This document shows positions 29,101 to 62,064 of a stretch of 64,000 bases of DNA, piece by piece (position 1 is the stretch's first letter; every line of letters starts with the position of its first letter). The notes beneath the pieces were generated by a model. The model did no database searches and had not been told where the DNA came from. It was given only the letters and a program-made list of their open reading frames with translations. Made by a program: the position numbers and the translations under genes. The stretch comes from a virus. The DNA is taken from the IMG/VR virus record IMGVR_UViG_3300020474_000007, positions 1-64,000 of that record, one strand, 5' to 3'.

Positions 29101-32100
29101 ATTGGTCTAGCCAACCAGATAAAGGTGGTTGGCAGTTGGATAATATCCTAACCCTGCCTTCTGGATTCCAGAGAGATTATTACAAAGTAACAATGAAAGA
29201 CGTTGATCCTACAAGCAACTCTTTTGTTGCTCCTCTTAGAAAGTGGGAGGTTGGACAGTATGGAAGCCAATTTGGACACTCTGTAGATATTGCTATAGAC
29301 GAATCAGACCCAAGCAAAGATGTTATTGTTGTGGGCGCTCCAACTAGTAAATTTGATAGAGTGTTCACAGACCCAGATCCTACACCTGTAAGATCCTGTG
29401 TAATGGTATTTACTGATGAATTCACGGGTTTTGAATCGCGTGGAGGAGTTACCAACGTTGCAGGCTTAGTTCAACAAGTAAATGCAAGAAACCAATATTA
29501 CAATTTGTATGCTAGTCCTCAATTTAAATTAGAAGTTGATATATTAATCTTTGAGTGTACTAAAAATACAAATAGACCATTTAAAATTGATCAAGGCAGA
29601 TTTAGAGAATCACTTAGTGTGGCTCATAGGTTCCAAATAAATAAGATAGTAAGAGGAGATGGAGTCCCTGAATATAATATAATAGCAGATCAAATTAGTC
29701 AAGCTTTCAGAGAAGTTTTTAATTATGATGTATCCAAAACAAATAATGGCTTGCCTGTTTCTTTGGGTTACTTTGTAGATAATAGTGCAAGTTTTGCGGA
29801 GACAGCCATACTCTCTGGCATCAAACCTTTCTTAAATTACTATGAGGAGTATACTTTTGCAAGTGGAGTTCAAACTTGGGATAATATTCCTGCTAGTGGC
29901 GCAATTATAAAAACTCCTTATACTGATCTTGTTGGCGAACAATGGGAAATGTTTGCGATGAGCGGATTAAACGATCTTTTAAGTGACTCAACAATTTCTA
30001 CTAATCGTGAATTATTTACTTCTGGCTATGGAATACTTTATAATGAAGACAATATAAGATTCAATCAAATTCCTCCAAGTGGTGGTAGGGTTTATGTGTT
30101 TAAACAAGAAACAGCAAAATCTGGATTATTCTATAATCAAGATACTCCTATTTGGTCCGTGTCAGATATATTAAAGTTAGATGTTAATGATTTTGAAGAT
30201 GAGGATGAAGATGTAATTAGTGACAAAAAATATGATAGTTTTGGTTACTCTGTTTCTATAAGTAATAATAAAGAAAATATTGCTGTAGGCTCTCCATTTA
30301 ATCGTAGCCGTGGCGTTACTGTGTTTGAACAAAAAGAAGGGTTTAGAGAAACTGAAACTCACAATCAAGTTGCACAATGGCTTGCCACCAAGGATGCTGA
30401 AGCAGTTCAGTTTGGAGACAACGCTTCTGTTTATAAAACTATGTATCAAAAATATCTAGAGTACGCCACTAGTTTTGGTTCTAATGGTGCTGGTGCAAAA
30501 TTATTTGAGACATTAGATCCTAGTGGTAGATTTGATGCCAGAATACATGCTGATTCTTTTGTTGCTGGTAAAAAGACACACGAATATACCAAAGTGTTTG
30601 ATTATCATAATACTTATAATTTCACGGGAAGTAAAACAGAAATTCCAACAGAATTTGCGGCCCATCCAAGAGTTGGTTTTTCTGTCTCTTTAAATGAAGA
30701 TGCAACTATGTTAGCAGTGGGCTGTCCGACTGACAGCATGAATCAGTGGGACGATAGTAACGTTTGGTTTGATAGTAATAAAGAGTGCGATGAAGAAAGA
30801 AATTGGAGAGGTGAGGCTGGGCAAGATGGATATTTATCTACACCTCATGCTAGCGAAAATTATCTTAAAGGCTTTATACCAGCAACTTGGCCTTCTTATG
30901 TAAATGCTGGAGCTGTACAAATATTTCAAACAAGAAAATATTATCCACACGATAAGTTTGTAGAGTATGGGATATATGGCAACAAACATGAATCTTTACT
31001 AGAACCAGAAGCCGTAAAGTCTGGAATAAGATTGCCAGAATATAGCTATGTGTCAGGTATATATGACAATTTGAGTATACCATTTGTCAAGACTCCTTAT
31101 CTTGAAAATACTGAAATTCCAGATGACGCAGGGGTTCTGATGATTGTTTGTCCCGAAGTTGATGCTTCTAGTCCAGCTGTTATACAAAATATTAAAGATT
31201 TCCTTGCAAAAGGCGATAGGAACTTAGTGTTGGTTGGCAATGATCCAGAATTTGAAGCTGAAGGTGCTTATAGAGATTCCAACAGGATCATCAATACCAT
31301 TCTTGAAGAAGTCGGTTCTAGGGTCAGATTACATGCAGCTTCTACTGCAAGTAGAGCTTTAAATGATGACATACCACTCAACGCAGATACCAATGTTATA
31401 GCGGCTAGTGTGCCAATTGGCAGTATAGATACTTATTTGGACGCTGGAAGTATGTTTGCTTCTGGCGTGGCAGACATTAGGTTACACGACCCAACTATCA
31501 GCACTGTAAATCATCCGTGCGATGGCGCTCAGTGGGACGAGTACATTGCTGCTTTAAGACTCATATTGAACCCAAGCGAACAACATCTCGCGGATAATCT
31601 GGCTAGACTAACATACGCAACTGCTAACATAGGGTGTAGCCCTTCAATTGCTCACAATGGGGACTTACGCGCACAGTGGTATGATTGGTGCAAAGATTCC
31701 GCGAACAAAGATATTAGATTCCCTAAAAACATACCATCTGCTTACGGCAAAATACCCGGAATGACTGCTCCATTCTGTAATCCGGGTCTGGGATGTTATG
31801 TAGATCCAGCTGATGACTGTGCGTGGAGAGCCACCAATGTTGATATGCCACCAAGACCAATTCTGGCAGCTGCTGAGACACCGCCTGCGTTCATCGTTAC
31901 CAAGCCGGGAGTTCCAGCCTCAAGCGGACTTGTCCACAGTCACTATGTAGACATTTTGGTTGGTCAAGAAAGCACGACTTTGCTTGGTGCGCCGACTTTA
32001 CCCGTTATGGATTGGTCTTCTGTGCTACCCTCGGCTGACGCTACAGTTACTCAATACAGTGGTAATTATACTGCGCTAGATTTAAATGTAGATAATTCAG

Positions 32101-35100
32101 CTGAACAACAACCATTCTTTAAGCCTCAAGATGTAGGGTCTAAAGGTTATCTTTTACAATCTAGAGCGCTTACTTTTGAAGAACCACTTTATGATCATGA
32201 AAAAATAGAAGATTTTGCACATATATCAGCAGAAGAAGAGTATCCAAACAACACTACATCTTCTATAGTCTTAATTGCTACGTTAGCCTCTGAAGCTAGG
32301 GACAAATTAGAATCAGGAAATGATGAAGCTATTTATTTTTATAGAAATATGTTTTGCAGAAATGATCAAAAATTTACTGATGAAGATATGTATGATGACA
32401 ACCCAAACATATTCGACAACAAAAACTATAGAGTCAATGTTGCTCAATTAGGTGGTTGGACGCAGAGAACTTCATTTGTTGATGGGTATAAAGACTCGTA
32501 CCTTTACACAGAAGACAATTTTACTGACAGCAACGGTGACATTCAAGTTAAGAAAGCTGGCCTAATACATGAAAACAGTAGATTGTATTATGACTCAGCA
32601 ACTCCCGATCAAGGATTTATAGACAGAATAGACTTAAATGTGACTATGGATGAACTACTTAACGGTAAAGATGGTGAACAATATAATAAATACGATGGGC
32701 ATCATTACCAAGTGTGCTGGATTGCAAATACTAAGTCTCTACCAAGCGATGATGATTTAAATAAACTTAAACTATGGTTACAGTCTGGTAATAAAAAGCT
32801 CGTCATAACCTACGGTCACGATAATGATCTTGAGGTAAACAGTTTCGGCACACGACACTTCCCAAGACTCGACGGTGTTGGAACGATAGGTGTAAATAAC
32901 GTAGAAGTTCCTTCTCAAGAAATAGCAGAAAACACTACTAAGTTATGTCAGAAGCTTGGCATAACAATGAAACCCCTCAAAACTAATGCAATAGATTATT
33001 CTGCCCCCAACGAAAGACGAAATGAAAGCCTCTTACCTATAATAGAAAGATATGCTGAATGGGGCAGAGATGTTGCAAAGTTTAATTCTCTCACCCAGAG
33101 GGATGAAGCTTTGCCAGAATTTCCTCCTACTAGCAAGTACGCATTTGTTAGTGACAATAAGAGACTTAAAAGATTTGTATTTACAGACTTCTCTTCTGCT
33201 CCTAATTATGACTTATCTAAACAAGGTCAAAGCAAGACTAATGTAAATAGTCTCTTCATTCCTATTGATCTTAACGGTGGAAAACCAATAGCCAGAATTA
33301 TCTCTACTAATCATAACAGAAGATATTTACATTATAATCAAATTAGAAATACTAAATACAAAACAAATTTATCTTATTTTAATAATTCTGGTTTTACCAA
33401 GGTTAGCTTTGCTACTCCTGCATATCAAACCTCTGGTTATTATTTAGATCTTAAATTTGAATCATTTTCAAACGAAAGCTTAAAATACGAAATAGGCGTG
33501 ACCAATGCGGTTCATCAAGATCCTATAAAGGGTGGCCCCGGCGAATCAAGAAAACATACTCTTACACTATACAATGATAATAGGCAACAAGTTGGACAAA
33601 TTGAATACAATGGATTAAGAACTCATGCTAGTGGTCCAAACAAAACCCTTGGTCCTTTTTATGCTACTAGTTCTGGTATAGACATTTATTTTGGTGTTAA
33701 CGAACGAAAATTGACAAATTTAGGGGATACTGATGCTCTCCCACTGTCAATGCGACTTGTTCACGTTTCGGGATACGCTGTCCCTACTTATGTAAACACA
33801 ACCCCTGTTACCGTGCCATCCTCCGTGCAAGTCATGGAAGTGCGTCCCGCAGTTCCTCCCATAGATATAAACTATGCACCAGAATATAGACAAATTAGCT
33901 CTATTCACGAAATTTATTGCGATTCAGCCACATGCTCTAGCGAGTTTGATAAACCATTTAATTCTAGAGGCGGTCCTGTAACTGTAAACGACCCTACCCA
34001 TGATCACTTATCTGGTCAGAATATATATGCTGTAGATGGACCTGTTATAGCATCTCAAGAAATAGAAACTTTTAGTCCTTTTATAGCTGGAGTTAACAGG
34101 TCTAGAATAACTGTTATCAGTGATCCAAGTATATTCCAAGGTCCAACAGTTTTAACAGATCAACAAACTATTAGAGAAGAGTTAGTTGAATTTATTCAAA
34201 GTCTATATCCCAACACTGTGTTCCCCGTGCAAACAAAGGGGAAACAATTTATTAATAGGACCAAGCTCGTAGCTCCCGAACGTGGAAGTCCTGCTAAATG
34301 GTATGGCGCTCACGGCGGGTCTGGATTGATTATGAGGTTCTTACCAAGTGGAACCACCAGCGTAACTAGATCTAACATGAGTGCATTTACTGGTCATGAG
34401 TCAAGTTATGATCCTACTTATGTACATCGCCCTAAATATTCTTTTGAATGCGAAGATGCTCCACCAGTAAAAGACAGAGAAAAAGCAATGCGTCTACAAA
34501 AACGAGCATTCCTTTCTAGCGCCATTGCTCTTGGAATATTGCCACAATTTAGTGGAGAGTATAAAGGCAAAGTATATGCTGATAATTGCTCCATGTATGC
34601 GGAAACTACTAAGGACTTCTTGGATCTTGAAGAGTTTCCATCTGGGTATCCCGGTGACTTATTTGGGTACACAGTCAAGGCGCTTGGAGATAAAGTTTAT
34701 GTTGGATGTCCATTTGGAGCTTATTCTCAGGAGGATAAAATTGTAAGTTGGTCTGGAATTGCTGGTACTCCAAGTCAAACAATTCCGTCTGGAGTTGCTG
34801 TAAGTAATTATGGTGGGGCGGGTGCTGTCTATTCATTTGAAAGAAATCTGAAGGGGAAAAGCCCCATAAGAAACAAAGACTTTGCTTGGGAAATGGTTCG
34901 TAAATTCAGACCCAACTCAATTAATCCGGGCTTAGATTTGTCTAATACTCTGGAAGCTCAGTCAAGCCATATCTTGGGTACGCATACCTACACTCAAACT
35001 TACCTAGAAAATAATAGCCAGTTTACCGATAAGTTTGGAATGGCTCTTGATTCTATGTCTGGTGTTCTTGTTATTGGTGCGCCGGGACATGACTTCCAAA

Positions 35101-36122
35101 ATTTTGTTGAGTTAGACCCAAGAACTGGACTGTTTATCAATAAAGCTTTTGGACATTCCTTTGACATACGAACAAGAACTGTGCATGACTTAGGCACTTC
35201 TGGTAATAGACATTTATATCCAAACAGCGGATTGGCAATACTAAATAATGGAGCAGCCTACTTATACAGTGAAGAATTTGATTTTTCTAAGAAACAAAAT
35301 GGGTGGAAGTTTGTTGAGAAAATTTCCCCACAGGGGTACGGATCTCATGAACAATATCGTATAATTCCTCCGGGGTATCCAACTGAAGTTGCTGATTCTG
35401 GATCAGAGAATTCTAATTTTGGCAACGCTGTTTCTGTTGTTAGAAGACAAAGAACAGATGCCGACTACACCATAGCCATTGGAAGCAAGGGACACCCCTT
35501 CTCTGGCGTTGGTGGTCACAGCTTGAATCATGGGGCAGCGTATACTTATGATTTAATGTTAAGAAACAATGCGGCTGTAACTCAAAATTCAAGCACCAAT
35601 ATTAAGGCTAGACTATTCTCTCAGACAAGCGGAGAGCAGCCTGACTACCCAATAGTAAATATGAATATTACTAATAATAATCAAAATTACAAAGAGTATT
35701 ATGCTACTGGTATAATTAATAGCAATTCTTTTGGAGAAATATTCTTAGAGGTTTCTGGAGACGATCCTTCGCAATATGGATTCCCGGCACACAGACCATA
35801 TATAGAATCCGTCAATGGCAAAATGCTTGTTGGCACGAATATATGGAATGGAGCCTTAATGTTTGTTGAGGGTCAACCCAACTTAACCTCGGGTGTATTA
35901 AACCTTTCTACTATAGTGCCTAGTTCTGAATTCGTGTATAATGATATAGGATTGTATTCTTTTGGTGTAGGTGGCCTTGTAAACGTTGGTGATTCGGGCT
36001 TATCTCTGTACAATCAATCTGAGACTCCAATAACCCTTGCGGAGTCTGGACTAACATTTTTTACGAGTGGTGTAAGGACTGACGCTGAGACGTTAAACTT
36101 CCGTATCAGAGGATATAAATAA
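23109..36122 (+). CDS. Giant multidomain virion adhesin-like protein (4337 aa)
   Basis: Residues 1-110 form a cupredoxin-like domain with H55, C94, H97 and M101 placed like type 1 copper ligands. Residues 111-204 are a Thr/Ala/Pro mucin-like tract. Beta-rich domains follow to about 1590. Residues 1590-1800 repeat 'x-L-Y-x-S-G' units ('MNLYTSG', 'MSLYVSG', 'MNLYCSG'), which return in variant form near the C-terminus. FG-GAP-like blades ('YGKSIVVKGNRLLIGAPE', 'FGHSV...VVGAP', 'FGYSVSISNNKENIAVGSP', 'VGFSVSLNEDATMLAVGCP') fill about 1950-2610, and three more ('FGYTVKALGDKVYVGCP', 'FGMALDSMSGVLVIGAP', 'FGNAVSV') fill about 3840-4150. Between them lie repeated alpha/beta segments. Its place after the tape measure suggests a tail-tip or central fibre. 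No signal peptide or catalytic site is recognised. Confidence 0.8.
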   Translation: MATFNITVLSTSSTSNGYRFSGVDRNGAISGTNNETINVNANDAINFTFYNSSSHPFSLAGTSISGKSATGGYYSYPSYASHTFTTGGTYIYDCDVHGSSMQGNIVVAAGTTTTTTTTTSTTTTTTTTAAPTTTTTTTTTTTAAPTTTTTTTTAAPTTTTTTTAAPTTTTTTAAPTTTSTTTTAAPTTTAAPTTTAAPTTTAAPFDDGTYNITSTFPDMNMLPSPSVPASATYATTTTTAAPSDQCTLCTKEHTLELSGDSALKASVFGMRTLRLKIKGTSAIKINPQVSVIRNTPVVLKSNGKIRASANSIMNPRKFIKVNNGNIKANLEFAGPLSVRTKIKLGSIFSNTHVDKVVGHFATLGSFLPQQKLYPSGDISSSSMINQDGSTANLYQSIDEGVAIGQYIKPDSQSSLVSDDSGTFIHPSAIRSDGSFSYKCAVSPAIINTDHSFLFMRAAAPLRNYGSDNAPQYTLQNIKLEDPSGNLIVHYKDVVVRGDADYDSDGPLSKNYFTIISEPAINYGGLGAWEKNYPFFGAHHVRGSNSFSLSLDITAKCLDDPFSQGFDIGYEENVCDIPELSVINDEDDFQSIAGSPISTQGQDIFLNPTDSFRISAIEICNSGGPRSDLALAPAHDNYVTAFVQAQAKGKLITKHIFPSQVLTHNFDTSIWPDVNSTWYHSGEAGVLTNNNVLVSSGKLLAEQISDRQASTHIKLINSSIQDSGKLLLKFEDTKQLFTTFTSDNDVAGGDFNANFNIRQRKTLPLQDTFYADIESINIKVVARKRTNSSPDYALDVVGYSDDKLLFVTEPSGGFLQNIAGGTIINQNVMSSSIVPPQELAIAKHAISDKDNSTVYSNSIANSGGDHHVLTQSPLINSIDFKQYTIPLKIYDKENLLGAPTKHDSSPYLEHLFVDIYPIPSGAEIADILLEVKYSPQNALNLRTIGTHNSDDPLVTTTVSLSPNGKVTNISSAKSLPSGENIPYAYDLTAYDNKHVYDNFARRWRGVSGKDVNEAFDASFDFSFDRRATAHPFNSGYFDFTKYRSDCVLDSEGRSFSGVFTGVTTSDIYKQLGWRFSNDLIYTGLLDPDGNAIDRRTINWSWSNSTFPNLTDAFDSAARLNDSSKYISFDSTSSNEFSFLVRFSPDYISSSDVASNLDMFHHGLIAAKYAVNDIGDKIVEFALAYEQDKLCAFSRDTTGNIIRIEDDLPYTSYVFPLTAMVTYNASDNKLRLYADSEASGTFNILRAESSAFTKVNTDQKVTLGYSAGSGLGSEVFITEFGMSSKCIDLVGSGYVEQRTSQSVGSSVDHKLTAGGVTDIFDSIRNPNHVSSRNKMYSYIDDKINNVWKLNDFRHCQFNQSFNRLSYRGDKDFVEHHLVHDGLPYSSRTNLSLPSTLQASGLAYHTQIENDFLRFNIGNASSVPSSGKFYAAAPRITKSLPRGYHFAEEAIAVDTVIDFHSDNTIAWDDGKLGPKLVVSLYSPSLIPDYDGADKSLGLVNRRIHYLEPSGCIRKITSGFNKNDLFDSSESWSVFNTEYEHVIKEFDHRHYATNINDMFLQYDVIYPSGSSFDSKVKIHSAMIRMDQALTTKPKVNDDMNLYTSGEFISIVDLSLFVDGKKSLDNLFGAPSGMSLYVSGVAVFPSSGDMNLYCSGIPTAIDEVNLYTAGHRSVSSDLVHGSDMFGSHNVGVNIYVSGQTRLLEEMSLFSYNNQTVPAASGSLNLVFPSPTLVAYNQNTSVNLFVKSPKFAEVSRILNVSMPLYSYDRDLFDFSSSMNLVNYNEPIINSSNDSVNLFTINYAAYDSNLVGQETILWNGRNVGSTVVSLDEPYISVSPTDSLRTQSTICYGDCGYGGNCNYVDINTHGVDWFKSYCTDGGIARGLDIDSNNQYYGIRKYTGLIPLYPYTISMRGFSGSTEYINLPKEIETVEYGSNSEVNFSGIKLFTNDPYGLHAKYGKSIVVKGNRLLIGAPEYDLYEGSKKLDKSGAVFLYKRLAAPSGTDWSSQPDKGGWQLDNILTLPSGFQRDYYKVTMKDVDPTSNSFVAPLRKWEVGQYGSQFGHSVDIAIDESDPSKDVIVVGAPTSKFDRVFTDPDPTPVRSCVMVFTDEFTGFESRGGVTNVAGLVQQVNARNQYYNLYASPQFKLEVDILIFECTKNTNRPFKIDQGRFRESLSVAHRFQINKIVRGDGVPEYNIIADQISQAFREVFNYDVSKTNNGLPVSLGYFVDNSASFAETAILSGIKPFLNYYEEYTFASGVQTWDNIPASGAIIKTPYTDLVGEQWEMFAMSGLNDLLSDSTISTNRELFTSGYGILYNEDNIRFNQIPPSGGRVYVFKQETAKSGLFYNQDTPIWSVSDILKLDVNDFEDEDEDVISDKKYDSFGYSVSISNNKENIAVGSPFNRSRGVTVFEQKEGFRETETHNQVAQWLATKDAEAVQFGDNASVYKTMYQKYLEYATSFGSNGAGAKLFETLDPSGRFDARIHADSFVAGKKTHEYTKVFDYHNTYNFTGSKTEIPTEFAAHPRVGFSVSLNEDATMLAVGCPTDSMNQWDDSNVWFDSNKECDEERNWRGEAGQDGYLSTPHASENYLKGFIPATWPSYVNAGAVQIFQTRKYYPHDKFVEYGIYGNKHESLLEPEAVKSGIRLPEYSYVSGIYDNLSIPFVKTPYLENTEIPDDAGVLMIVCPEVDASSPAVIQNIKDFLAKGDRNLVLVGNDPEFEAEGAYRDSNRIINTILEEVGSRVRLHAASTASRALNDDIPLNADTNVIAASVPIGSIDTYLDAGSMFASGVADIRLHDPTISTVNHPCDGAQWDEYIAALRLILNPSEQHLADNLARLTYATANIGCSPSIAHNGDLRAQWYDWCKDSANKDIRFPKNIPSAYGKIPGMTAPFCNPGLGCYVDPADDCAWRATNVDMPPRPILAAAETPPAFIVTKPGVPASSGLVHSHYVDILVGQESTTLLGAPTLPVMDWSSVLPSADATVTQYSGNYTALDLNVDNSAEQQPFFKPQDVGSKGYLLQSRALTFEEPLYDHEKIEDFAHISAEEEYPNNTTSSIVLIATLASEARDKLESGNDEAIYFYRNMFCRNDQKFTDEDMYDDNPNIFDNKNYRVNVAQLGGWTQRTSFVDGYKDSYLYTEDNFTDSNGDIQVKKAGLIHENSRLYYDSATPDQGFIDRIDLNVTMDELLNGKDGEQYNKYDGHHYQVCWIANTKSLPSDDDLNKLKLWLQSGNKKLVITYGHDNDLEVNSFGTRHFPRLDGVGTIGVNNVEVPSQEIAENTTKLCQKLGITMKPLKTNAIDYSAPNERRNESLLPIIERYAEWGRDVAKFNSLTQRDEALPEFPPTSKYAFVSDNKRLKRFVFTDFSSAPNYDLSKQGQSKTNVNSLFIPIDLNGGKPIARIISTNHNRRYLHYNQIRNTKYKTNLSYFNNSGFTKVSFATPAYQTSGYYLDLKFESFSNESLKYEIGVTNAVHQDPIKGGPGESRKHTLTLYNDNRQQVGQIEYNGLRTHASGPNKTLGPFYATSSGIDIYFGVNERKLTNLGDTDALPLSMRLVHVSGYAVPTYVNTTPVTVPSSVQVMEVRPAVPPIDINYAPEYRQISSIHEIYCDSATCSSEFDKPFNSRGGPVTVNDPTHDHLSGQNIYAVDGPVIASQEIETFSPFIAGVNRSRITVISDPSIFQGPTVLTDQQTIREELVEFIQSLYPNTVFPVQTKGKQFINRTKLVAPERGSPAKWYGAHGGSGLIMRFLPSGTTSVTRSNMSAFTGHESSYDPTYVHRPKYSFECEDAPPVKDREKAMRLQKRAFLSSAIALGILPQFSGEYKGKVYADNCSMYAETTKDFLDLEEFPSGYPGDLFGYTVKALGDKVYVGCPFGAYSQEDKIVSWSGIAGTPSQTIPSGVAVSNYGGAGAVYSFERNLKGKSPIRNKDFAWEMVRKFRPNSINPGLDLSNTLEAQSSHILGTHTYTQTYLENNSQFTDKFGMALDSMSGVLVIGAPGHDFQNFVELDPRTGLFINKAFGHSFDIRTRTVHDLGTSGNRHLYPNSGLAILNNGAAYLYSEEFDFSKKQNGWKFVEKISPQGYGSHEQYRIIPPGYPTEVADSGSENSNFGNAVSVVRRQRTDADYTIAIGSKGHPFSGVGGHSLNHGAAYTYDLMLRNNAAVTQNSSTNIKARLFSQTSGEQPDYPIVNMNITNNNQNYKEYYATGIINSNSFGEIFLEVSGDDPSQYGFPAHRPYIESVNGKMLVGTNIWNGALMFVEGQPNLTSGVLNLSTIVPSSEFVYNDIGLYSFGVGGLVNVGDSGLSLYNQSETPITLAESGLTFFTSGVRTDAETLNFRIRGYK
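23439..23720 (+). repeat. Thr/Ala/Pro-coding low-complexity tract with 18-bp tandem repeats
   Basis: The tract encodes runs of 3-11 Thr separated by Ala-Ala-Pro (residues 111-204 of the giant protein). Thr codons ACA, ACC, ACG and ACT are mixed irregularly in the first two thirds. The last third contains three perfect copies of the 18-mer CACGACCGCTGCGCCAAC (23651-23668, 23669-23686, 23687-23704), followed by a degenerate one. The 3' part looks like recent slippage or unequal exchange, whereas the 5' part looks older and scrambled. Confidence 0.85.
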
Positions 36123-52870: not shown

Positions 52871-53307
52871 CTGTTCACCTCATAAGTAGTTTCTATAATT
52901 CCACGCCAGTAAGCCACAAAGTCTTCATCGAAACTCTTTAGATCGTCAGCTAAGACTATATACTGATTACCTTGATCTGATATTTCATTGTTTGTGTTTA
53001 GTTGTATAATTGGGGTGTCTACTGCTTTATGTACATCCTGAACAATATCTTGAGGAAAGGCTGTACTTCCGACAATCATCAAGTCATAATCGACTTCTGG
53101 AGACACATAGTGTAGAGGTAGAATGTATAAATTTTCTGGCCTGTTTTCGTACACTCCCGATTCTTCAAGTTTAAACTTGTAAAAATTGTGTTCAGTTTTA
53201 CAAAGAGCTAGATCTAATTCTTTATCTACAGAAAGTAAAAGCACGTTAAGAGTTTGCTTTCTCTCAGAATTAGCTTGTTTTATATATTTACAAACCACAT
53301 TATTCAT
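52867..53307 (-). CDS. Hypothetical alpha/beta protein of the glycan cluster
   Basis: This 146-residue protein has alternating strands and helices ('TLNVLLLSVDKELDLALCKT', 'NLYILPLHYVSPEVDYDLMI', 'VGSTAFPQDIVQDVHKAVDT'). That resembles the N-terminal Rossmann half of a GT-B glycosyltransferase, but the C-terminal nucleotide-binding half is absent. The start overlaps the upstream glycosyltransferase gene by 8 bases. It may be a degenerate or partner protein of the neighbouring glycosyltransferases. No catalytic residue can be assigned. Confidence 0.4.
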   Translation of the reverse strand: MNNVVCKYIKQANSERKQTLNVLLLSVDKELDLALCKTEHNFYKFKLEESGVYENRPENLYILPLHYVSPEVDYDLMIVGSTAFPQDIVQDVHKAVDTPIIQLNTNNEISDQGNQYIVLADDLKSFDEDFVAYWRGIIETTYEVNR

Positions 53308-54427
53308 TGATATACCTCGCCATCAAGTTTCCAATTTCTTTAAAATCGTTTATTTTTGCTCTTTCGTATCCTTTTTTCTTGTCTACTTTTCCTCTTGCGT
53401 TGTAATATTGTCTCATAGCTTTTTTAATTTCAGATTCGCTTGGGTGAAACCATTCTTCTCTACCAGTAGATAGCTCTGCAAACGCTGGATCTGAATGATT
53501 ACACACATCATACACCCCATTTATTAATGTCCCAGTGTTGTTATCTTCAGGATCTATAAAATCTCTTGGACCGCCCTCATTGCTACATATTGGAGTATTT
53601 CCATAAATCATTGCTTCAAAAGATGGTATCGAGAATCCCTCTCCGTGAGAAGGTAATACAAAGCAATCTAGAGAAATGTGCAGTTTTTGTATGTCTTCAG
53701 ATGGTATGAAATCTGATATAATAATTTCTTTTCTATAATCACTTAAACTAGGATACATCCTCATAGCTTTTTTGATTTCATTGCACTTGTGTTCTACTAT
53801 GTGTCCACAGGATTGAGGATTGATACCTGTTTTATGAACTTTTAAAACCAGTTCTACGTCCTCACCATTTTTAAACTCGCTGTGAAAACATCTTACAACA
53901 GCGTCGAGATTTTTTCTATCGTTTAAATCTCCTATATAATAGAATTTAAAACTGCTAGGAGAACCCATACTCAATGATAACTGTGAATCTACATCGTATG
54001 AAGAAATATCAAATGGGTGCGGTACTACTTTTACTGCCGGATCAGGTGCATTAAAACCATCGTTTAGCAGGCTGTCTTGATTACATCTAGATGGAACCCA
54101 AACTTCATCGACAAGTTTCAGGTTGTTATACCAGCTCAAATGTTTAATTGTATTTGACTCAGTTGCAAAGTATGCTATATTCTTTTTAAATTTATCTGTG
54201 CCAACTATAAAGTGTGGCAAAACATGCTGTATGCAAACGTCTACATTATTAGATTTATGCATAGACATATCTACAATTTTTTGCGGAACTTCATGATTAG
54301 TATCTGTTAATTTAACATTCCTACAGACAACATCAATACCTACACTGTTGAGTGCTAATACGTTATTTATTGCAGCTGTAGACCATCCAGAACCTTCTAT
54401 AAAATGAGCTATATAGAGTACTTTCAT
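53300..54427 (-). CDS. Glycosyltransferase family 4-type enzyme
   Basis: This 375-residue protein has a Rossmann start 'MKVLYIAHFIEGSGWSTAAI' and an acceptor/donor core with 'EVWVPSRCNQDSLLNDGFN'. The GT4 signature is 'SHGEGFSIPSFEAMIYGNTP' (residues about 258-277, with the conserved Glu and Gly-Pro style loop). It transfers a sugar from a nucleotide sugar to an acceptor in the usual family scheme; both are unknown here. It is coupled by 4-base overlap to a second GT4 upstream. A role in glycosylating a virion or DNA component is inferred. Confidence 0.82.
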   Translation of the reverse strand: MKVLYIAHFIEGSGWSTAAINNVLALNSVGIDVVCRNVKLTDTNHEVPQKIVDMSMHKSNNVDVCIQHVLPHFIVGTDKFKKNIAYFATESNTIKHLSWYNNLKLVDEVWVPSRCNQDSLLNDGFNAPDPAVKVVPHPFDISSYDVDSQLSLSMGSPSSFKFYYIGDLNDRKNLDAVVRCFHSEFKNGEDVELVLKVHKTGINPQSCGHIVEHKCNEIKKAMRMYPSLSDYRKEIIISDFIPSEDIQKLHISLDCFVLPSHGEGFSIPSFEAMIYGNTPICSNEGGPRDFIDPEDNNTGTLINGVYDVCNHSDPAFAELSTGREEWFHPSESEIKKAMRQYYNARGKVDKKKGYERAKINDFKEIGNLMARYINE

Positions 54428-56085
54428 TTTAGATTTTTCTCCACTCTTATGTTTTCCCAGTGATTGTGCCTATTGCATAACTGTACGAAATGATTATAAG
54501 CAGAATTAAAATCAAAATTGTTTCTTATATTTGCTCCATCGTATGCAGCAGAACTTTCATTAAAGTACATTCCAGCAACAGAAGATGTTGTTGTTCTGTA
54601 TAATAAATCTCTTGTTAATCTTGCTTCCATGTGAGTGTTCAGTTGTGATGGATCGCATAAAACTTCAGATATCAAAAATTTAGCTAATTGGCTATGACTA
54701 ACATTTTTAATTTTTTCTAAATCTGGCTTTGGTTGTGGCTTTCTAAATCTTGGAGGGGATCTCCACGTTGACTCCAAAGGTCTTACCTCTACGCTATCGA
54801 AATAGTCTTCCCATTTTTTTCCCGACTTATCCCACTGAAAATGTTCTAAAAACTTTTGCCTAGTGTTAAATCCCATCTGCATTCTAATTGCCTGTGGTTT
54901 ATCAAAGAATTCTTTGAGTTTTTCAGCTGTTAAATCATTATCTGGAACTGCTCTCATGCAACCCGTTTCCAATTCTTTATATAGAGCTTTTGGTTTTAAA
55001 GGTATCCCTTCTAATTTTCGTATAACAGTTTCCATAGCAGAATAATCAGTTCCCATCACAGGAACTCCGCAAGCAGCGGCTTCTACTTGTGGAAGACCAA
55101 AACCTTCTGAGTTTGCATATTGAATATATATGTCGAATAGATTTATGATTCTTGATAGTTCTTCATACTTTGCGCCCTTTTTTACGTTACTCAGCGTGGC
55201 AGAAAACTTACCACTAAATGGAGACTCTGCTATAGCGCCTTTAAACAATGACGGGAAAGGTCTACCTGTATCATTGCACATATAGGTAAACAATATGTTG
55301 GATGAAAGTTTGTTTTGATGTATTAATTCTGGTATGTCCCAGCCCATATCTGGATAACTAGTGTGGCAGTACAGAAAATAATTTCTAGGATCTTCTACAG
55401 AATCTAATAATTTTCTAAACGATTGAAATAAGTCTGGATAAAGTTTTCTTCTTTGATTTCTCATTACTGTGCCAATAATTTTAGCATCAACTGGTATACC
55501 ACAAGCTTTTCTTAATTCGTCCCTGCTATCTATTGGCTGATACGCTGAGTGTGCAGACGGAGGCGAACTTCCCAGATAATTTATTTTATCCCCAGCCTGA
55601 TTTTTCAAGACTTGCCCAGCCCAATCAGAATATGTTAAACACGCATCAGCAGAACTATATGTAGCTATCCACTGTCTAGCTTGAGGCATTGCGTCTACGG
55701 TTGGCATGATACACCATTTAAAGAAATCTCTGAAAGGAGATCTTTGTTGATACTCTAGCATCCAAAAATCTCTAATGTCACAGACAATATCTGGCTCAAA
55801 ATCTAGACAAGTTTCTTCAAATCTAAATTCTCCAAACTGATTTTGTGGAGTCTGATTATATTGGTCTTGAATATTTTTTGGATCTGATTCGTGGGGCATG
55901 ACTCCATAAAATTTCCAAGGAATGTCTTTAGCTCTGGGATCATTAGGCACTCCATAGCTCCCAAGTTCAGCTATTTCATATTTGCCAGTAGAATGCAAGT
56001 AATTCAATATCTCTCGCGTGTAGGTGGCATACCCAGTGTTAAGAAACGTAGACTCACTGCAAAATAAAATTCTTTTCTTTCGCAT
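54424..56085 (-). CDS. Glycosyltransferase family 4-type enzyme (long)
   Basis: This 553-residue protein starts 'MRKKRILFCSESTFLNTGYA', a GT-B type N-terminus. The donor-side signature is 'SEGFGLPQVEAAACGVPVMG' (residues about 330-350). 'GTVMRNQRRKLYPDLFQSFR' provides the Arg/Lys region of the phosphate-binding site. The C-terminal extension of about 130 residues ('HSQLAKFLISEVLCDPSQLN') is unusual for the family and may bind the acceptor. It lies directly after SSB in the operon, and its stop overlaps the next glycosyltransferase start by 4 bases. No membrane segment is seen. Confidence 0.85.
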   Translation of the reverse strand: MRKKRILFCSESTFLNTGYATYTREILNYLHSTGKYEIAELGSYGVPNDPRAKDIPWKFYGVMPHESDPKNIQDQYNQTPQNQFGEFRFEETCLDFEPDIVCDIRDFWMLEYQQRSPFRDFFKWCIMPTVDAMPQARQWIATYSSADACLTYSDWAGQVLKNQAGDKINYLGSSPPSAHSAYQPIDSRDELRKACGIPVDAKIIGTVMRNQRRKLYPDLFQSFRKLLDSVEDPRNYFLYCHTSYPDMGWDIPELIHQNKLSSNILFTYMCNDTGRPFPSLFKGAIAESPFSGKFSATLSNVKKGAKYEELSRIINLFDIYIQYANSEGFGLPQVEAAACGVPVMGTDYSAMETVIRKLEGIPLKPKALYKELETGCMRAVPDNDLTAEKLKEFFDKPQAIRMQMGFNTRQKFLEHFQWDKSGKKWEDYFDSVEVRPLESTWRSPPRFRKPQPKPDLEKIKNVSHSQLAKFLISEVLCDPSQLNTHMEARLTRDLLYRTTTSSVAGMYFNESSAAYDGANIRNNFDFNSAYNHFVQLCNRHNHWENIRVEKNLK

Positions 56086-56087
56086 CT

Positions 56088-56402
56088 TTAATCCTCAAAT
56101 TCTGGATGACATAGATCAAACTCATTTATTCTAAATATCATCTGTGTATTTTCTTTTGACACATTCTTAGCTGTAGCTTGAAAAGTAATTTTAGTTCCCT
56201 CTACTGCGAACCTCTCTATAATTTCTGCTCCAGTGTGCCAAGCTTCGCACTTTAAATATACTGGTGTCCTGCTTTTATCCTTGCTATTTCTTACTTTTCT
56301 ATAGTTGTAAATTACCACCACCAAATCTGCTTTCAGGACTTTATCAACCATGTATACATCTGGATTATTGACTAAATATCCAGTGAAGCAACAATTATTC
56401 AT
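56088..56402 (-). CDS. Single-stranded DNA-binding protein (OB fold)
   Basis: This 104-residue protein is preceded by an AGGAGAG site in the 48-base gap after the polymerase C-half. Residues 3-90 follow the SSB pattern: 'CCFTGYLVNNPDVYM' at the start, 'TPVYLKCEAWHTGAEIIERF' and 'EGTKITFQATAKNVS' in the core. The C-terminus is short and acidic (final 'HPEFED') but lacks the classical Asp-Asp-Ile-Pro-Phe tail. Its position beside the polymerase III-type genes supports a replication role. It is shorter than bacterial SSB, and phage-type oligomerisation is unknown. Confidence 0.78.
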   Translation of the reverse strand: MNNCCFTGYLVNNPDVYMVDKVLKADLVVVIYNYRKVRNSKDKSRTPVYLKCEAWHTGAEIIERFAVEGTKITFQATAKNVSKENTQMIFRINEFDLCHPEFED

Positions 56403-56450: not shown

Positions 56451-58016
56451 TTATATCTCATAAATTTTATCTATAATAAACGCATTATCTTTACCAGATA
56501 TTACTCCGCAGAATATAAGGTTATTACCTTCGTATAATATATACTTATATTTCTGTCTGACACTAGGAAACGCTATGACGCTATCTAGTACGCAAGTTTC
56601 ATCTTCTATTGTAAGAAATGCCATAATTTTACCTTTAGAATCGCCCTTGGCTATAGTATAATCCGAGAGTCTTTGAAGGTTAGCAGCTACGCAAAGACTT
56701 TTCCCCTTCTTTCCATTCACTATTTCCTTACATGTTGTGTTGGCGGCAGATTTATCGGATGTGTCAATTTTGTTCAGACTTATAGGACATCCAAGGCATC
56801 TTGCCTCTTGATCTACTATCCAGTTAGGATCATCCTCAAGGTCGTATGGAGGGTCAACCAAAAGCTGTATTTCGTTTTCTACAGCTTGCTGTCTAGCAAC
56901 TTTGCTAGTGCCTCCACCATTCTTCTTTGTAGGAGCTAGATCTTTAAGACATTCTGTAAAACTATTCCATCCTTTTAATTTATAGTTTGTTTGTATCCAT
57001 TTTTGCTCTGCTTTAGTTAAAGTTCTAAATATGTCATATTCATATATAGCTCTATTTCTTGAAATACGTCCAACAAAATCCCTGAAAAAGCCAACAGATG
57101 CTAAAGCTTTAAAAGCTGTAGAGCTAATTTTTGGAGCAAAGAATAATAATATTTCTAGCCAAGTAAATTTAACCATTGGTTTAGAAAGTTCTGACTCTGC
57201 CTCTTTTATTCCTTCCAATACCTTGTCACCTGTTTTTCCCGTGAGAGACTTAATATCCTTAATCCCAAAGTATATTTTCCCATCCTTTGTGTTAAATTTT
57301 ATATCAAAATTAGCCAAACTAGGAGTCCTTGCCTCAATATCAAATAGTTTAGCCTCAGAAATTAATTCGTATATTTCTTGGTGTGGGTCTTGTTTTTCAT
57401 TAGCATAGTACAAGTAAGATAAAAAGAATTCTTCAGGATTATGCGCCTTTTGATAAGCGCTCCAGTAAGAACACACGGCGTATGAAATACTGTGAGATTT
57501 GTTAAATGCATATCGGGAAGATGCTTGAATCCAGCCAAAGATTTCCTCTGCTTCTTCTTTGTTTACTGTGCCAATTTTCTTTGCGCCAGTAATGAATTTT
57601 TTCTTAACCTTTGCCATAAGGTCTGCTTTTTTCTTGCCAATTGCTTTACGTAGCTCGTCCGCTTCTTCAAGATTAAATCCAGCAATCTTTTGAGCAATAC
57701 GCATAGATTGCTCTTGATAGACCAACACTCCATATGTAGGTAGTAGAATTTCTTCTAGCGCTTCGTGTAAGTACGTAACCTCTTCACGACCGTGTTTGCG
57801 ATCAATAAAGTGTTGCGTCATAGATTTACCATCTACGAACGCTTTCAAACATCCGGGGCGAATAATAGCAATTAGTGCAGAAAGTTCTTCAATATTATTT
57901 GGCGCTAGTTTTTTAGACCAAGATTTTCCAAGATTGCTTTCTAACTGAAAGACACCCTTGGTTTTTCCTTCTGAAAACAATCTCCAAGTTGCCTTATCTC
58001 CATACTCATTTGACAT
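56451..58016 (-). CDS. dnaE-C: DNA polymerase III alpha subunit, C-terminal half
   Basis: The start is set at the ATG at 58016, 5-6 bases after GGGA; a TTG 36 bases further up lies inside the exonuclease gene. The resulting 521 residues begin 'MSNEYGDKATWRLFSEGKTK' and continue with 'GVFQLES', 'IIRPGCLKAF', 'YGVLVYQEQS', 'ELRKAIGKKKADLM' and 'AFNKSHSISYAV', the fingers and adjoining regions of bacterial DnaE. A helix-hairpin-helix-like part and a C-terminal OB-like fold (about 430-521) follow. The three catalytic Asp residues are not here; they are in the other half (58676-60250). The two products must associate to make an active polymerase. Confidence 0.92.
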   Translation of the reverse strand: MSNEYGDKATWRLFSEGKTKGVFQLESNLGKSWSKKLAPNNIEELSALIAIIRPGCLKAFVDGKSMTQHFIDRKHGREEVTYLHEALEEILLPTYGVLVYQEQSMRIAQKIAGFNLEEADELRKAIGKKKADLMAKVKKKFITGAKKIGTVNKEEAEEIFGWIQASSRYAFNKSHSISYAVCSYWSAYQKAHNPEEFFLSYLYYANEKQDPHQEIYELISEAKLFDIEARTPSLANFDIKFNTKDGKIYFGIKDIKSLTGKTGDKVLEGIKEAESELSKPMVKFTWLEILLFFAPKISSTAFKALASVGFFRDFVGRISRNRAIYEYDIFRTLTKAEQKWIQTNYKLKGWNSFTECLKDLAPTKKNGGGTSKVARQQAVENEIQLLVDPPYDLEDDPNWIVDQEARCLGCPISLNKIDTSDKSAANTTCKEIVNGKKGKSLCVAANLQRLSDYTIAKGDSKGKIMAFLTIEDETCVLDSVIAFPSVRQKYKYILYEGNNLIFCGVISGKDNAFIIDKIYEI

Positions 58017-58686
58017 ACAGGTTCCCATCGGCAAATGCTTTGTCAAGTTCAATGTTTTGATAGACTGCTCTATGAGTCTTCAATAATTTTATAAATATAT
58101 TAGCAGTATCTTTAACGTCTTGTAGTGCATCGTGGGCATTCTCTGTGCTTAATCCCATTCTTTCCCTGAGAGTGTCCATGCTGATTGATCTAATGCTAGG
58201 ATCTCCCTCAGTCCACATATGCATATTATCCATAACGTCACATTTATGAATCTTGCTAAAGATTTTTTGTTGCTGTCTCGCATCGTCAAATGGTCCGTAT
58301 TCTTTGCACAGCCTATTAATAATAACCATGTCAAAACCTATGATGTTAAATCCCACTGGAATTGGGTTAAAGAAAGGATCTTTTTTCCAGTTGTATTGGT
58401 CTACGAATGAGCAAAACTTTTTCCATACTGATTTTAAAGCTGGAGCCTTGGATAAAGCTTCTCTCGTTTTATTTGTAACCTTTAGAGCGCCATCCTCGAT
58501 TGGGTCAAGACCAGCAGCAATAGCTTTGTCATCGTCGAGAATGGGTTTAATCTCGCTGTTAAAAGAACCTTTCATAGCTAGATTGCGACCATCTAGTGCA
58601 ATTGCAGCAATTTGTGTAGGTTGTGTCGTAAGTGGATTTCGACTTCCTGTTTCAAAGTCAAATACAATAAAGTCTCTATTTGCCAT
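58006..58686 (-). CDS. DEDDh 3'-5' exonuclease (DnaQ-like proofreading candidate)
   Basis: This 226-residue protein has all DEDDh motifs: D10 and E12 in 'VFDFETGS', D119 in 'GFNIIGFD', and H185 and D190 in 'HDALQDVKDTA'. It is therefore expected to remove mispaired 3' ends, as the epsilon subunit does for polymerase III. The gene lies between the two halves of the polymerase alpha gene. Its start overlaps the N-half stop by 11 bases (with AAGGAA 8 bases before the ATG), and its end overlaps the C-half start by 11 bases. The arrangement strongly suggests it works with the split polymerase. Confidence 0.92.
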   Translation of the reverse strand: MANRDFIVFDFETGSRNPLTTQPTQIAAIALDGRNLAMKGSFNSEIKPILDDDKAIAAGLDPIEDGALKVTNKTREALSKAPALKSVWKKFCSFVDQYNWKKDPFFNPIPVGFNIIGFDMVIINRLCKEYGPFDDARQQQKIFSKIHKCDVMDNMHMWTEGDPSIRSISMDTLRERMGLSTENAHDALQDVKDTANIFIKLLKTHRAVYQNIELDKAFADGNLYVK

Positions 58687-60250
58687 TAGTTAATTCCTTA
58701 ATTTTCATTAGTTTGTCTAGAAGATTAATTCCTAGAACGTCAAATTTTACATGACCTAGTGCCTCTAGATCAGACATTTCTAATCCTGCTATTTTTTCTG
58801 TAGAACCTTTCTGTACTACCATTGGGCATACGTTTTTCAGTTTGTCTTTGGAAATGACAACTCCGGCAGCGTGTTTTCCCTGAGTTTTAAATGTGCCTTC
58901 AATTTCAATTGCTTGTTGAAAATACTCTGCATAATCACCATCGAGTTTACCATCATCAGTAATGTGGCAGAAGTCTCGCAGCTCATCTGCACGGTTTAGC
59001 AAAGACCATCTTATGATTGACCTGTCTTCACCGTCCATCTCTGCAAGTTGATCTGATATGTCTGCTTCATTTGGAACACTCTTAGTTATAGCATTCATTT
59101 CACTAAAAGAACAAGCCTCATTAATCCGAAGAACTTCTTTTATTGCGCTTCGCCCTTGTAGTCTTCCAAAAGTAATCATCTGGCTGACATGTTCGTTTCC
59201 ATATGTTTTTTTTAGATAGTCTATAACATCGTCGCGCTTTTTGCCCGGAACGTCCATGTCAATATCTGGTAGTGACACATGACCTCCAGTATTTCTACCA
59301 GCGTTATAAAATCTTTCAAACAAAAGATCATGTTCTACTGGGTCAATCTTTGTTATACCAACTAAGTAGGAAATTAAGCAACCTGCGGCAGACCCTCTTC
59401 CCGGCCCAGCCAGCCAACCCATATCTTGTTCTACGTGGCGTATGATGTCTTGTACAATCAAGAAGTATCCAAACAAATCAGCGTCTTTGATGACCTGAAG
59501 TTCTTTTCTAAATCTGTCTCCATAAACTTGTTGTTTATCTTTGTCTTTTCCCACCTTTTGTTTTAAAAGTTTAGTATAGCCCTCTCTTGCCATGTTTGTT
59601 AAATAATCTTCTTGCGATAGATTGTTGGGACATACAAATTTTGGAAGCATGGGTGGATTAAGTATCTCGTATTCCTCACAAGAGTCGTATATGTATTCTA
59701 ATTCTTTAGTTGTTTTCCCTTTGGTAATACACTTATCATCTTTAGAAAAATACTCTAGAATTTCTGTAGGCAAATCATTTTTTCTGATTTTAGTTTGTAT
59801 TTTAGGCAAAGTGGTTTTAAGAGCAGAACATAATAACACCCTATGCAATACAGCTTGCTCTTTTTTGACATAATACGAAGGCTTAATATTGTCCTTTGAT
59901 TGCTGTAGTGCTATTAAGTTGTTCCTGCTAATTATGTCTTTAGCTATATCTTTCGGTATATTGCCATTTTCACCTGTCATAGAAACCATTTGAATTAGGT
60001 CATGCCATCCATCTTTATTCTTAGCATACACAGTAGTGCTATCAAACGAGCAACCAATAATCGGCTTGATGCCAACATCTTTACAGGCTTGATGAAAAGA
60101 TACTGCGCCAGATATAGATTTGTAATCTGTAATTCCACAGGCAGGATAATCGTTATCAGCGCACATCTTTGCAAGCTCGTTTGGCTTTGAGAATCCTCTA
60201 AGCAAACTGTAATGTGTAAAATTCTTCAATGGAAACCAATTCAAAATCAA
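58676..60250 (-). CDS. dnaE-N: DNA polymerase III alpha subunit, N-terminal half (PHP and palm)
   Basis: This is a 524-residue protein. Residues 1-75 are a degenerate PHP domain: 'KNFTHYSLLRG' keeps one His of the usual H-x-H, and 'CGITDYKSISG' has Tyr where active PHP domains have His. The palm contains 'GPGRGSAAGCLISYLVGI' (282-299), catalytic D329 and D331 in 'LPDIDMDV', and D504 in 'GHVKFDVLGI' near the end. The protein stops about 20 residues later, in the linker before the fingers, and the fingers continue in the gene at 56451-58016. No intein sequence is visible. It overlaps the upstream methyltransferase by 4 bases. Confidence 0.93.
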   Translation of the reverse strand: MILNWFPLKNFTHYSLLRGFSKPNELAKMCADNDYPACGITDYKSISGAVSFHQACKDVGIKPIIGCSFDSTTVYAKNKDGWHDLIQMVSMTGENGNIPKDIAKDIISRNNLIALQQSKDNIKPSYYVKKEQAVLHRVLLCSALKTTLPKIQTKIRKNDLPTEILEYFSKDDKCITKGKTTKELEYIYDSCEEYEILNPPMLPKFVCPNNLSQEDYLTNMAREGYTKLLKQKVGKDKDKQQVYGDRFRKELQVIKDADLFGYFLIVQDIIRHVEQDMGWLAGPGRGSAAGCLISYLVGITKIDPVEHDLLFERFYNAGRNTGGHVSLPDIDMDVPGKKRDDVIDYLKKTYGNEHVSQMITFGRLQGRSAIKEVLRINEACSFSEMNAITKSVPNEADISDQLAEMDGEDRSIIRWSLLNRADELRDFCHITDDGKLDGDYAEYFQQAIEIEGTFKTQGKHAAGVVISKDKLKNVCPMVVQKGSTEKIAGLEMSDLEALGHVKFDVLGINLLDKLMKIKELTNGK

Positions 60251-60780
60251 ATCCTCTTTCTAAAAACTGCTAAGCCTTGTCCTTCTACAACCTTATCTAT
60301 TACTTGATAGTGTTCTTCGACAACTCTGTAAGCACTTCTACATTCAGGCCAGTAATCGTGCATAAACATATAGCCATCGTCCGTGATATAATCTTTTATA
60401 AACTTAGCACACTCAGGTCTAGCTCTTCCGTCAATTAAAACAGCATTAAATTTGGTCTTAAAAAATTGTGGATATTCAATGTAAGTTTTAAAATCTTTTG
60501 CTCTAGATGATGTATCTAATTCTTGCCAAGTGGTAGCTTTTATTCTATTTATATCAGGAGTCGCGTAATCCCTAGATACATGAGTTATATTTACATTCTG
60601 ACCACAATTATTCTTAACCTTATTAAACCATTTCTCATCATGCTCTAATGAGTAATATTCGTTAACGTAGTTTGGAAAAAGTAACGTACTTCCTCCACTT
60701 CCGTATTCTAACATAGAATAATAGGATTTCAAATATTTTAATATAGTCTGTATTTCTGTACTACTCATCCACGGTTGCAT
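60247..60780 (-). CDS. Class I SAM-dependent methyltransferase-like protein
   Basis: The start at 60780 is preferred because GGAG lies 6 bases upstream; the frame continues further up inside the FkbM gene. The 177-residue product has 'MLEYGSGGST' (residues 23-32) as a SAM-binding Gly loop, 'YYSLEHDEKWFNKVKN' as motif II with an acidic residue, and 'FNAVLIDGRARPECAKFI' as a motif IV-like strand. The relatives I recall with 'E-Y-G-S-G-G-S-T' loops act in glycan contexts. It sits between the FkbM methyltransferase and the polymerase N-half, linked by overlaps. The substrate is unknown. Confidence 0.65.
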   Translation of the reverse strand: MQPWMSSTEIQTILKYLKSYYSMLEYGSGGSTLLFPNYVNEYYSLEHDEKWFNKVKNNCGQNVNITHVSRDYATPDINRIKATTWQELDTSSRAKDFKTYIEYPQFFKTKFNAVLIDGRARPECAKFIKDYITDDGYMFMHDYWPECRSAYRVVEEHYQVIDKVVEGQGLAVFRKRI

Positions 60781-61387
60781 AGCTGTCTCCATCATACCTG
60801 AACTTACTGTCATGCGCACCGTCAGCTGGTATTCTTACCCACTTGTTTTTATGTAAGACCTCAAATGTGTATGCCAGTTGATCTTTGTCCGCTAAAGAGT
60901 TTGTTTCAAAATTTACAGTATTTATTTTTATCTTTTTATTTCTAACTAATTCTACCACCTGCAAAACTATATCACAGTCATACCCCTCTGTATCAATCTT
61001 TAAACTTACAATCTCGTTAATTCCAAATTTATCTACCAAGTCTTTCATGGTGATACATTCAACGTCTTCTGATTTTACTAACTCTTCATAGTTTAGATTT
61101 AGTCTGTCGCATTCCCTTTTAATTGTTGGGTGTATTCCATACATTTGATTGCATCCTCGTAACCAATCTGGAAGTCTTTTGCTCGATATGGTCTCAAGCG
61201 GGAGGTAGTATATTTTTTCTGTTCCAGATCTTTTACATACCGCTGCATGAACTTTATGCGTGTTGGGATATTCTGGTATAGAATCAATGTATCTTTTAAC
61301 TGGTTCTACATATACGCCCCTTTGATTGTTTGTAGGAACTGTGTACCTGAAGTCTGAAGTTCCTATGTCAATAAAGTCAACCTTCAT
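60761..61387 (-). CDS. FkbM-family methyltransferase
   Basis: This 208-residue protein opens 'MKVDFIDIGTSDFRYTVPTN' (SAM-binding start) and has 'YVEPVKRYIDSIPEYPNTHK', the 'E-P' motif of FkbM proteins. 'SLKIDTEGYDCDIVLQVV' (about 127-144) is the family's signature strand and helix. FkbM enzymes typically O-methylate sugars or small molecules. The gene overlaps the next methyltransferase by 20 bases and follows a GT-A-like gene, which points to a decorated sugar as target. Methylation of phage DNA bases is a less likely alternative. Confidence 0.78.
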   Translation of the reverse strand: MKVDFIDIGTSDFRYTVPTNNQRGVYVEPVKRYIDSIPEYPNTHKVHAAVCKRSGTEKIYYLPLETISSKRLPDWLRGCNQMYGIHPTIKRECDRLNLNYEELVKSEDVECITMKDLVDKFGINEIVSLKIDTEGYDCDIVLQVVELVRNKKIKINTVNFETNSLADKDQLAYTFEVLHKNKWVRIPADGAHDSKFRYDGDSYATVDE

Positions 61388-61389
61388 AA

Positions 61390-62064
61390 TTATATTCCTT
61401 CGTAATTTTTGTCAAAATAGAGATATTCTTCAATCTCTGGATATAGTTCAATGTATTCCTTTGTTTTGCCAAGTGGAACATTAACAGGTTGTGGCTCTAC
61501 ATAGATAGGTATCTTTTTTTGATGCTTTAAAACTTCTGGCACAAAATGTTTTCCTAGAAACCATTCGTCAGCACCAAACACTGTCTTATCGTCTTTATAT
61601 TCTTTCATCAATTCTTCCATCTTGAATGGTAGTTGTTTTGCACCTACGCACCCAGCCATGTAATATCTAGCTGTTTTACTTGTTTTTCGCGCATGAGCAA
61701 CCCAAATAAAGTGAGCAATTGACGGTGTGCTAGCGAAGTGCTGCATAGATAAAATATCGTTTCCTTGCATTTTCCAATCTAAGTCCCTACATATCGCTAT
61801 GTCACAATCATCGAAAGCTAGAAATCTCCAGAAGCAACCTTCTCTTCCATTGCTAGGTGGCATTTCTATCAGTTCAACATTACTCATAGTAGATAAAGTA
61901 ATTAATATTTGTTTGTTTACAGTGTTGTCATGATATACTCTAAATTTCCAATTAGGTAAATATTGCTGACAAAATCTGGCAGACACAGGAGCATTCATAG
62001 CATACAACCTGTAGGATCTAGGAGAAGATCCAAATAGACATGTAGACACAGCTGCTTTTATCAC
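61390..62064 (-). CDS. GT-A type glycosyltransferase-like protein
   Basis: This 224-residue protein uses GTG at 62064, with an upstream in-frame stop excluding a longer start. 'GCFWRFLAFDDCDIAICRDL' (about 74-93) followed by 'DWKM' gives a D-x-D-like 'DLD' motif. This is the donor-metal site of a GT-A family in which 'W-R-F-x-A-F-D' precedes 'R-D-x-D'. 'FGADEWFLGKHFVPEVLKHQ' near the C-terminus is likewise typical. It transfers an unknown sugar. It lies just ahead of the FkbM methyltransferase, and the pair could build a methylated sugar. Confidence 0.6.
   Translation of the reverse strand: MIKAAVSTCLFGSSPRSYRLYAMNAPVSARFCQQYLPNWKFRVYHDNTVNKQILITLSTMSNVELIEMPPSNGREGCFWRFLAFDDCDIAICRDLDWKMQGNDILSMQHFASTPSIAHFIWVAHARKTSKTARYYMAGCVGAKQLPFKMEELMKEYKDDKTVFGADEWFLGKHFVPEVLKHQKKIPIYVEPQPVNVPLGKTKEYIELYPEIEEYLYFDKNYEGI

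Follow-up and report, generated by a model that had tools for sequence, protein, structure and literature searches.

Can the alpha subunit of a C-family DNA polymerase, usually a single chain, serve a phage as two separate polypeptides with the gene of a proofreading exonuclease lodged between theirs? The question is raised by a stretch of viral DNA of 64,000 nucleotides (IMG/VR record IMGVR_UViG_3300020474_000007, positions 1 to 64,000; hereafter the window), in which the gene for DNA polymerase III alpha is cut in two. The answer reached here, with considerable confidence, is that the locus encodes a working replicative polymerase of the C family (DnaE type), with an alpha subunit made up of two polypeptides that are translated, together with the proofreading exonuclease, from a single unit of three overlapping genes. 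The first-pass annotation of the window had proposed such a natural two-polypeptide alpha with its exonuclease, and the proposal is supported by a gene order kept throughout a clade, by the completeness of both halves and by the lack of any splicing element, the assembly of the two chains being still presumed.

All three genes lie on the minus strand. The N-terminal half of alpha (N-half; 58676..60250) carries the PHP domain and the palm/thumb (Pfam PHP, 8e-16; DNA_pol3_alpha, 1.7e-67), the C-terminal half (C-half; 56451..58016) carries the fingers, a helix-hairpin-helix region and an OB fold (Pfam DNA_pol3_finger, 4.7e-48), and nested between them is a DEDDh (DnaQ/RNase T-like) 3′-5′ exonuclease (58006..58686; Pfam RNase_T, 3.3e-11; PHROG 192 “DNA polymerase exonuclease subunit,” 2e-27). 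The stop of the N-half and the start of the exonuclease overlap by 11 nucleotides (58676..58686), as do the stop of the exonuclease and the start of the C-half (58006..58016); the open reading frames (ORFs) and both overlaps are where the first-pass annotation had placed them. The N-half ORF counts 524 amino acids from a TTG at 60250, relatives favoring the TTG at 60244 and thus 522 amino acids; the exonuclease has 226 amino acids and the C-half 521 from its ATG, its open frame extending upstream to a TTG at 58052. Because the three genes occupy three different reading frames, the halves cannot be joined by one frameshift. On sequence comparison, a Shine-Dalgarno-like AAGGAA, present in several close relatives, lies 5′ of the exonuclease ATG (58694..58699, minus strand), and the 11-nucleotide overlap at this start likely reflects translational coupling.

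The domain order of PHP, palm/thumb and fingers, together with the three catalytic aspartates of the palm, is that of a C-family alpha, from whose usual single-chain state every member of the clade departs by having two ORFs, in different frames and separated by a gene. The N-half profile aligns with residues 9-567 of E. coli alpha and the C-half profile with 591-848 and, weakly and for the OB fold, with 1009-1058, which agrees with the Pfam matches and with the earlier assignment of PHP and palm to one half and of the fingers to the other. The PD-I-D motif of the N-half aligns onto D401/D403 of E. coli alpha, and the aspartates named beforehand (D329, D331, and D504) are correct in the numbering of the 524-residue protein, becoming D327, D329, and D502 from the 522-residue start. 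AlphaFold (AF2) predictions, made for single chains only, gave well-formed models of the N-half (predicted local distance difference test, pLDDT, 91.7; predicted template modeling score, pTM, 0.88) and of the C-half (pLDDT 91.5, pTM 0.83). In Foldseek searches the former matched intact alpha structures (4jom/2hnh, E~1e-31) and the latter the alpha structures 7pu7, 4iqj, and 2hpi (E~1e-21). In a deep branch, the C-halves of L415, L411, L433, L193, and others are extended at the N-terminus by a stretch whose conserved CGC motif may form a metal-binding knuckle.

Nothing of the enzyme's core is missing at the cut. Alignment to full-length DnaE, suggested as a check with the first-pass annotation, places the junction in the palm-fingers loop, after the first fingers helix, with all core strands present; the model of the N-half terminates with a palm strand followed by one helix. 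Counted from the KFDxLG motif, which carries the third aspartate, to FQLES, the spacing in 50 contiguous alphas is 39-55 residues (median 46), and its median in 60 split representatives is 40.5. In the window, the N-half stops 17 residues past KFDVLG and the C-half begins 22 residues before FQLES, and the resulting 39 residues fall within the range of unsplit alphas; no core element is therefore lacking from the split subunit.

The arrangement is also far from unique. Six IMG/VR contig scans and annotated phage records yielded 438 loci, classified by profiles as 334 split, 84 contiguous (a class that includes jumbo-phage records cut at another site) and 20 incomplete; two of the split loci, L202 and L331, were set aside because their genes are apparently broken. 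After removal of duplicates, the order N-half, exonuclease, C-half was found in all 196 remaining split loci, with C-half identity down to 43%, a recurrence in sequence-distinct loci that argues against chance and answers the suggestion that phage genomes be searched for the same gene order. In a quick, unrooted tree of 107 representative alphas, including 62 split cluster representatives, the split group forms one side of a single branch (Shimodaira-Hasegawa-like approximate likelihood ratio test, SH-aLRT, 100), requiring one change and no reversion. Contiguous alphas of isolated phages and of other contigs fall outside the split clade, and no contiguous member was found inside it in the six IMG/VR scans; homologs with an uninterrupted gene, which had been named as a finding that would speak against a natural split, are thus restricted to its outside. 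By this tree, the split would have arisen a single time, in the ancestor of a large clade of uncultured phages, and the arrangement appears old and clade-wide. A search of genome contigs returned a single split locus, L440 (VFHP01000007.1), with the same order on a 152-kb contig of a SAR202 metagenome-assembled genome (MAG), possibly a binned phage contig; the other loci from that search are contiguous bacterial DnaE, except two truncated by contig ends. As to hosts, a DUF1559 protein with a pseudopilin N-methylation motif is encoded at G000 70131-71108 (L439 7131-8108) and also in the L010 record; the family is typical of Planctomycetes and was taken as a host hint.

Several observations bear on whether the split enzyme replicates the phage genome. 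The catalytic aspartates, along with D10, E12, D119, H185, and D190 of the exonuclease (195-196 rows), are invariant in about 196 loci, barring gaps and one misaligned row. Differences per non-synonymous site (pN) are far below those per synonymous site (pS) in the N-half, the exonuclease and the C-half, with omega about 0.02-0.08 where synonymous divergence (dS) is computable; all three genes combine saturated synonymous sites with little non-synonymous change, and both halves are by these measures under strong purifying selection. The possibility that the exonuclease had recently undergone gene conversion, raised by its protein identity of 93-95% vs. 80% in the halves, was rejected, its synonymous sites being as saturated as those of the N- and C-halves. 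Each of 15 records of 74-210 kb contains exactly one alpha palm and exactly one RNase_T-family (DnaQ-type) exonuclease, the nested one, and neither PolA nor PolB was found in them; the split alpha, the only DNA polymerase detected, is therefore very likely the phage's replicase. Proofreading would most likely be supplied by the separate DEDDh exonuclease, since a canonical metal ligand has been lost from the PHP domain, where the position aligned with H12 of E. coli alpha is not conserved.

Some points weigh against this reading. Evolutionary distances of the N-half and the C-half co-vary (r 0.93), but the exonuclease gives mirror correlations nearly as strong (0.91, 0.90), and the correlation between the halves may reflect only shared ancestry. 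Every record is metagenomic, some are perhaps incomplete and none comes from an isolate; the DnaN-type clamp family was not detected in them. Finally, the structure models are of single chains, and the two-chain complex and its activity are what we infer.

Taken as a mechanism, the preferred reading would have the three genes translated in sequence off one mRNA, as suggested by the overlaps and by the AAGGAA before the exonuclease. The N-half would provide the PHP domain together with the palm and its full set of catalytic aspartates, and the C-half the fingers, the helix-hairpin-helix region and the OB fold. Since the loop that follows the first fingers helix is the sole break in the chain, the two could dock non-covalently, much as their counterparts do within an intact alpha. 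Mobile nucleases and other cassettes would later have used both ends of the exonuclease gene as landing sites. Non-covalent assembly, polymerase activity, binding of the exonuclease to alpha and translational coupling are all, in this scheme, presumptive.

The junctions bear on how the split came about. No endonuclease gene is present at those of the window, but many relatives carry EndoVII, HNH or PD-(D/E)XK-like genes there, and extra genes occur in relatives at both the N-half/exonuclease and the exonuclease/C-half junctions. These inserts include endonuclease VII (30 loci), HNH-type proteins and a PD-(D/E)XK-like protein recognized by motif only, as well as uracil-DNA glycosylase, FkbM methyltransferases, glycosyltransferases and, in deep branches, small conserved ORFs. 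On the tree, the nuclease families account for 12 rows with 11 changes, 11 with 10, and 23 with 16, or roughly a change for every one or two occurrences, and the exonuclease between the halves has been lost in no split locus. Since nuclease changes nearly equal nuclease occurrences, the nucleases appear to come and go while the exonuclease stays resident. A 60-amino-acid ORF of the N-half/exonuclease junction is fixed in a deep branch (L192 5489-5728 and about 60 other loci; two changes on the tree). The polymerase genes of the window are flanked by glycosyltransferase-like genes and an FkbM methyltransferase (53300-56085 and 60761-62064), similar to genes inserted at the junctions of relatives.

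A rival account of origin keeps the same two-chain enzyme and lets the insertion of a homing endonuclease make the split, the exonuclease having moved in or remained later. This account, which we consider a serious possibility although somewhat short of even, draws on the repeated occurrence of EndoVII, HNH and PD-(D/E)XK-like genes at both junctions and on T4-like precedents (PMC2988022). An alternative origin would be that an exonuclease-alpha pair was duplicated in tandem and the copies then lost complementary parts, for which the isolated phage JG024, with epsilon directly upstream of an intact alpha, offers a parallel. The exonuclease profile detected no exonuclease near alpha in the loci of the contiguous outgroup, although an epsilon gene is annotated at that place in JG024. 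Against such origins, neither a contiguous sister nor an endonuclease-only intermediate was found among extant loci, and the N-half/exonuclease junction of the deepest branches holds small ORFs that are mostly not endonucleases. A bolder version of the preferred reading, tentative and on balance rather unlikely, is that of an obligate heterotrimeric core of alpha-N, exonuclease and alpha-C, in which the co-translated exonuclease would be the assembly partner of the halves and the junctions a permanent landing place for mobile nucleases, to which a position within an essential gene is of advantage.

Much less probable is that the halves are rejoined after transcription or translation by an intron, a bypass or a trans-splicing element that escaped recognition, the exonuclease being its passenger gene. 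Introns and inteins do often interrupt phage genes, and even within this clade the N-half itself is a target. In L126 (2573-5337) and its near copy L231, the interruption lies at GPGRGS and consists of an N-terminal Hint match (weak and under the Pfam cut-off), an ORF for a TnsA-like nuclease and a C-terminal piece that ends in HN ahead of SAAG; by its features this looks to be a split-intein fractured gene within an already split polymerase. In L436, a LAGLIDADG protein lies between two N-half pieces. At the palm-fingers junction, however, the 17 residues after KFDVLG and the 22 before FQLES leave no space for intein halves, which measure about 100 and 35 amino acids. Pfam found no Hint/intein domain in either half of the window, in the same search that picks up Hint in L126 as a positive control, and Rfam gave no notable intron match either in the window or in L436, L126, L067, or L020. 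Moreover, the overlaps leave zero non-coding space between halves and exonuclease, the exonuclease codons are conserved throughout, and the intergenic content of the same junction varies freely among relatives. The earlier view that the junction holds no intein and has no room for an intron, and hence differs from the cyanobacterial split-intein arrangement, withstood all these searches.

Slightly less credible still is that the split gene is a decayed relic in phages that replicate with the host polymerase. That the window is a single uncultured record could be taken this way, but the invariant catalytic residues, the low pN and the persistence of the clade down to 43% identity point to maintenance, as do the associated genes for a DnaB helicase, a DnaG-type primase and RecA, which are found, together with PhoH, in the record of the window. 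An assembly artifact, finally, is barely conceivable, for although every sequence derives from an assembly, the same order, with conserved overlaps and varied inserts, recurs in distinct loci from many metagenomes and on the SAR202 MAG contig, leaving no place for the frameshift or assembly error against which the first-pass annotation had cautioned.

The locus indicates that a C-family replicase can be separated between its catalytic palm and its fingers and still be in use throughout a clade without protein splicing. Such a natural two-piece alpha would be useful for reconstitution and for questions of palm/fingers assembly, and it raises the question of why the proofreading gene stays locked between the halves. 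The junctions themselves constitute a natural experiment on the exploitation of essential genes by mobile endonucleases, which are gained and lost while the core stays fixed. On a practical level, annotation pipelines expecting a full-length alpha may record these phages as carrying fragments.

Elsewhere in the window, a small gene lies immediately downstream of the C-half (56088..56402, minus strand); it resembles a single-stranded DNA-binding protein (SSB/OB) by eye only, had no library match, and its SSB identity could not be confirmed. A 1091-amino-acid phage protein with RCC1-like repeats is encoded at 5024-8299, and positions 23109-36122 hold an ORF of 4337 amino acids with no Pfam match in its first 500 residues.

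Among known systems, the split DnaE of cyanobacteria (Ssp/Npu split intein) likewise has alpha in two genes, but its halves are encoded at separate loci, are trans-spliced by a split intein and are cut at a different site, whereas the phage genes are adjacent and have no intein. PolC also has an exonuclease inserted in the coding region of an alpha polymerase; there it is an in-frame domain within PHP, and here a separate ORF between palm and fingers. Dassa reportedly described, in 2009, fractured genes whose halves bear split inteins and enclose an endonuclease. The fractured PolB gene of MIJ3 has this half-nuclease-half order (PMC6892783), which the present locus shares, except that its middle gene is a DEDDh exonuclease and its junction contains no intein. 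Contiguous DnaE-like alphas of phages (Pseudomonas phage Y1, JG024, Mycobacterium phage Phrappuccino) have homologous domains in the same order, but in one uninterrupted polypeptide. Jumbo-phage DnaE of the PHROG 13169/12219 type (L339, L343, L354, L356, L357) is, too, a C-family phage alpha in two genes; however, it is cut just before SLPDID, upstream of the catalytic aspartates, and has separate origins on the tree. The same second site is used in L347, L351, and L293, and the gap in these jumbo-phage alphas holds other genes, such as an ORF judged by eye to be DNA methylase-like. A precedent for non-covalent docking of the halves may be offered, by analogy, by the T4-related phages 25 and 44RR, whose PolB is split as gp43A/gp43B, two proteins that co-purify and are polymerase-active (Petrov 2010, reviewed in PMC2988022). 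This too is a phage replicative polymerase in two chains without an intein, with a homing endonuclease gene at the phage 25 junction; it differs in being a B-family enzyme of unrelated fold, in having its exonuclease as a domain of gp43, in occurring in few phages and not in a whole clade, and in that its insert is a seg endonuclease or an untranslated spacer instead of a proofreading exonuclease gene. More broadly, split phage replication genes such as gp43A/B and Aeh1 nrdA have in common with the present locus that both halves are complete and that splicing elements are absent. Split DNA polymerases of phages are already on record (PMC10580990, PMC2988022, PMC6892783); no description of a split C-family phage alpha with a nested proofreader was found in the open-access literature, subscription journals lying mostly outside the scope of the search, and the split C-family alpha with its nested exonuclease appears to be a new form within the known class of split phage polymerases.
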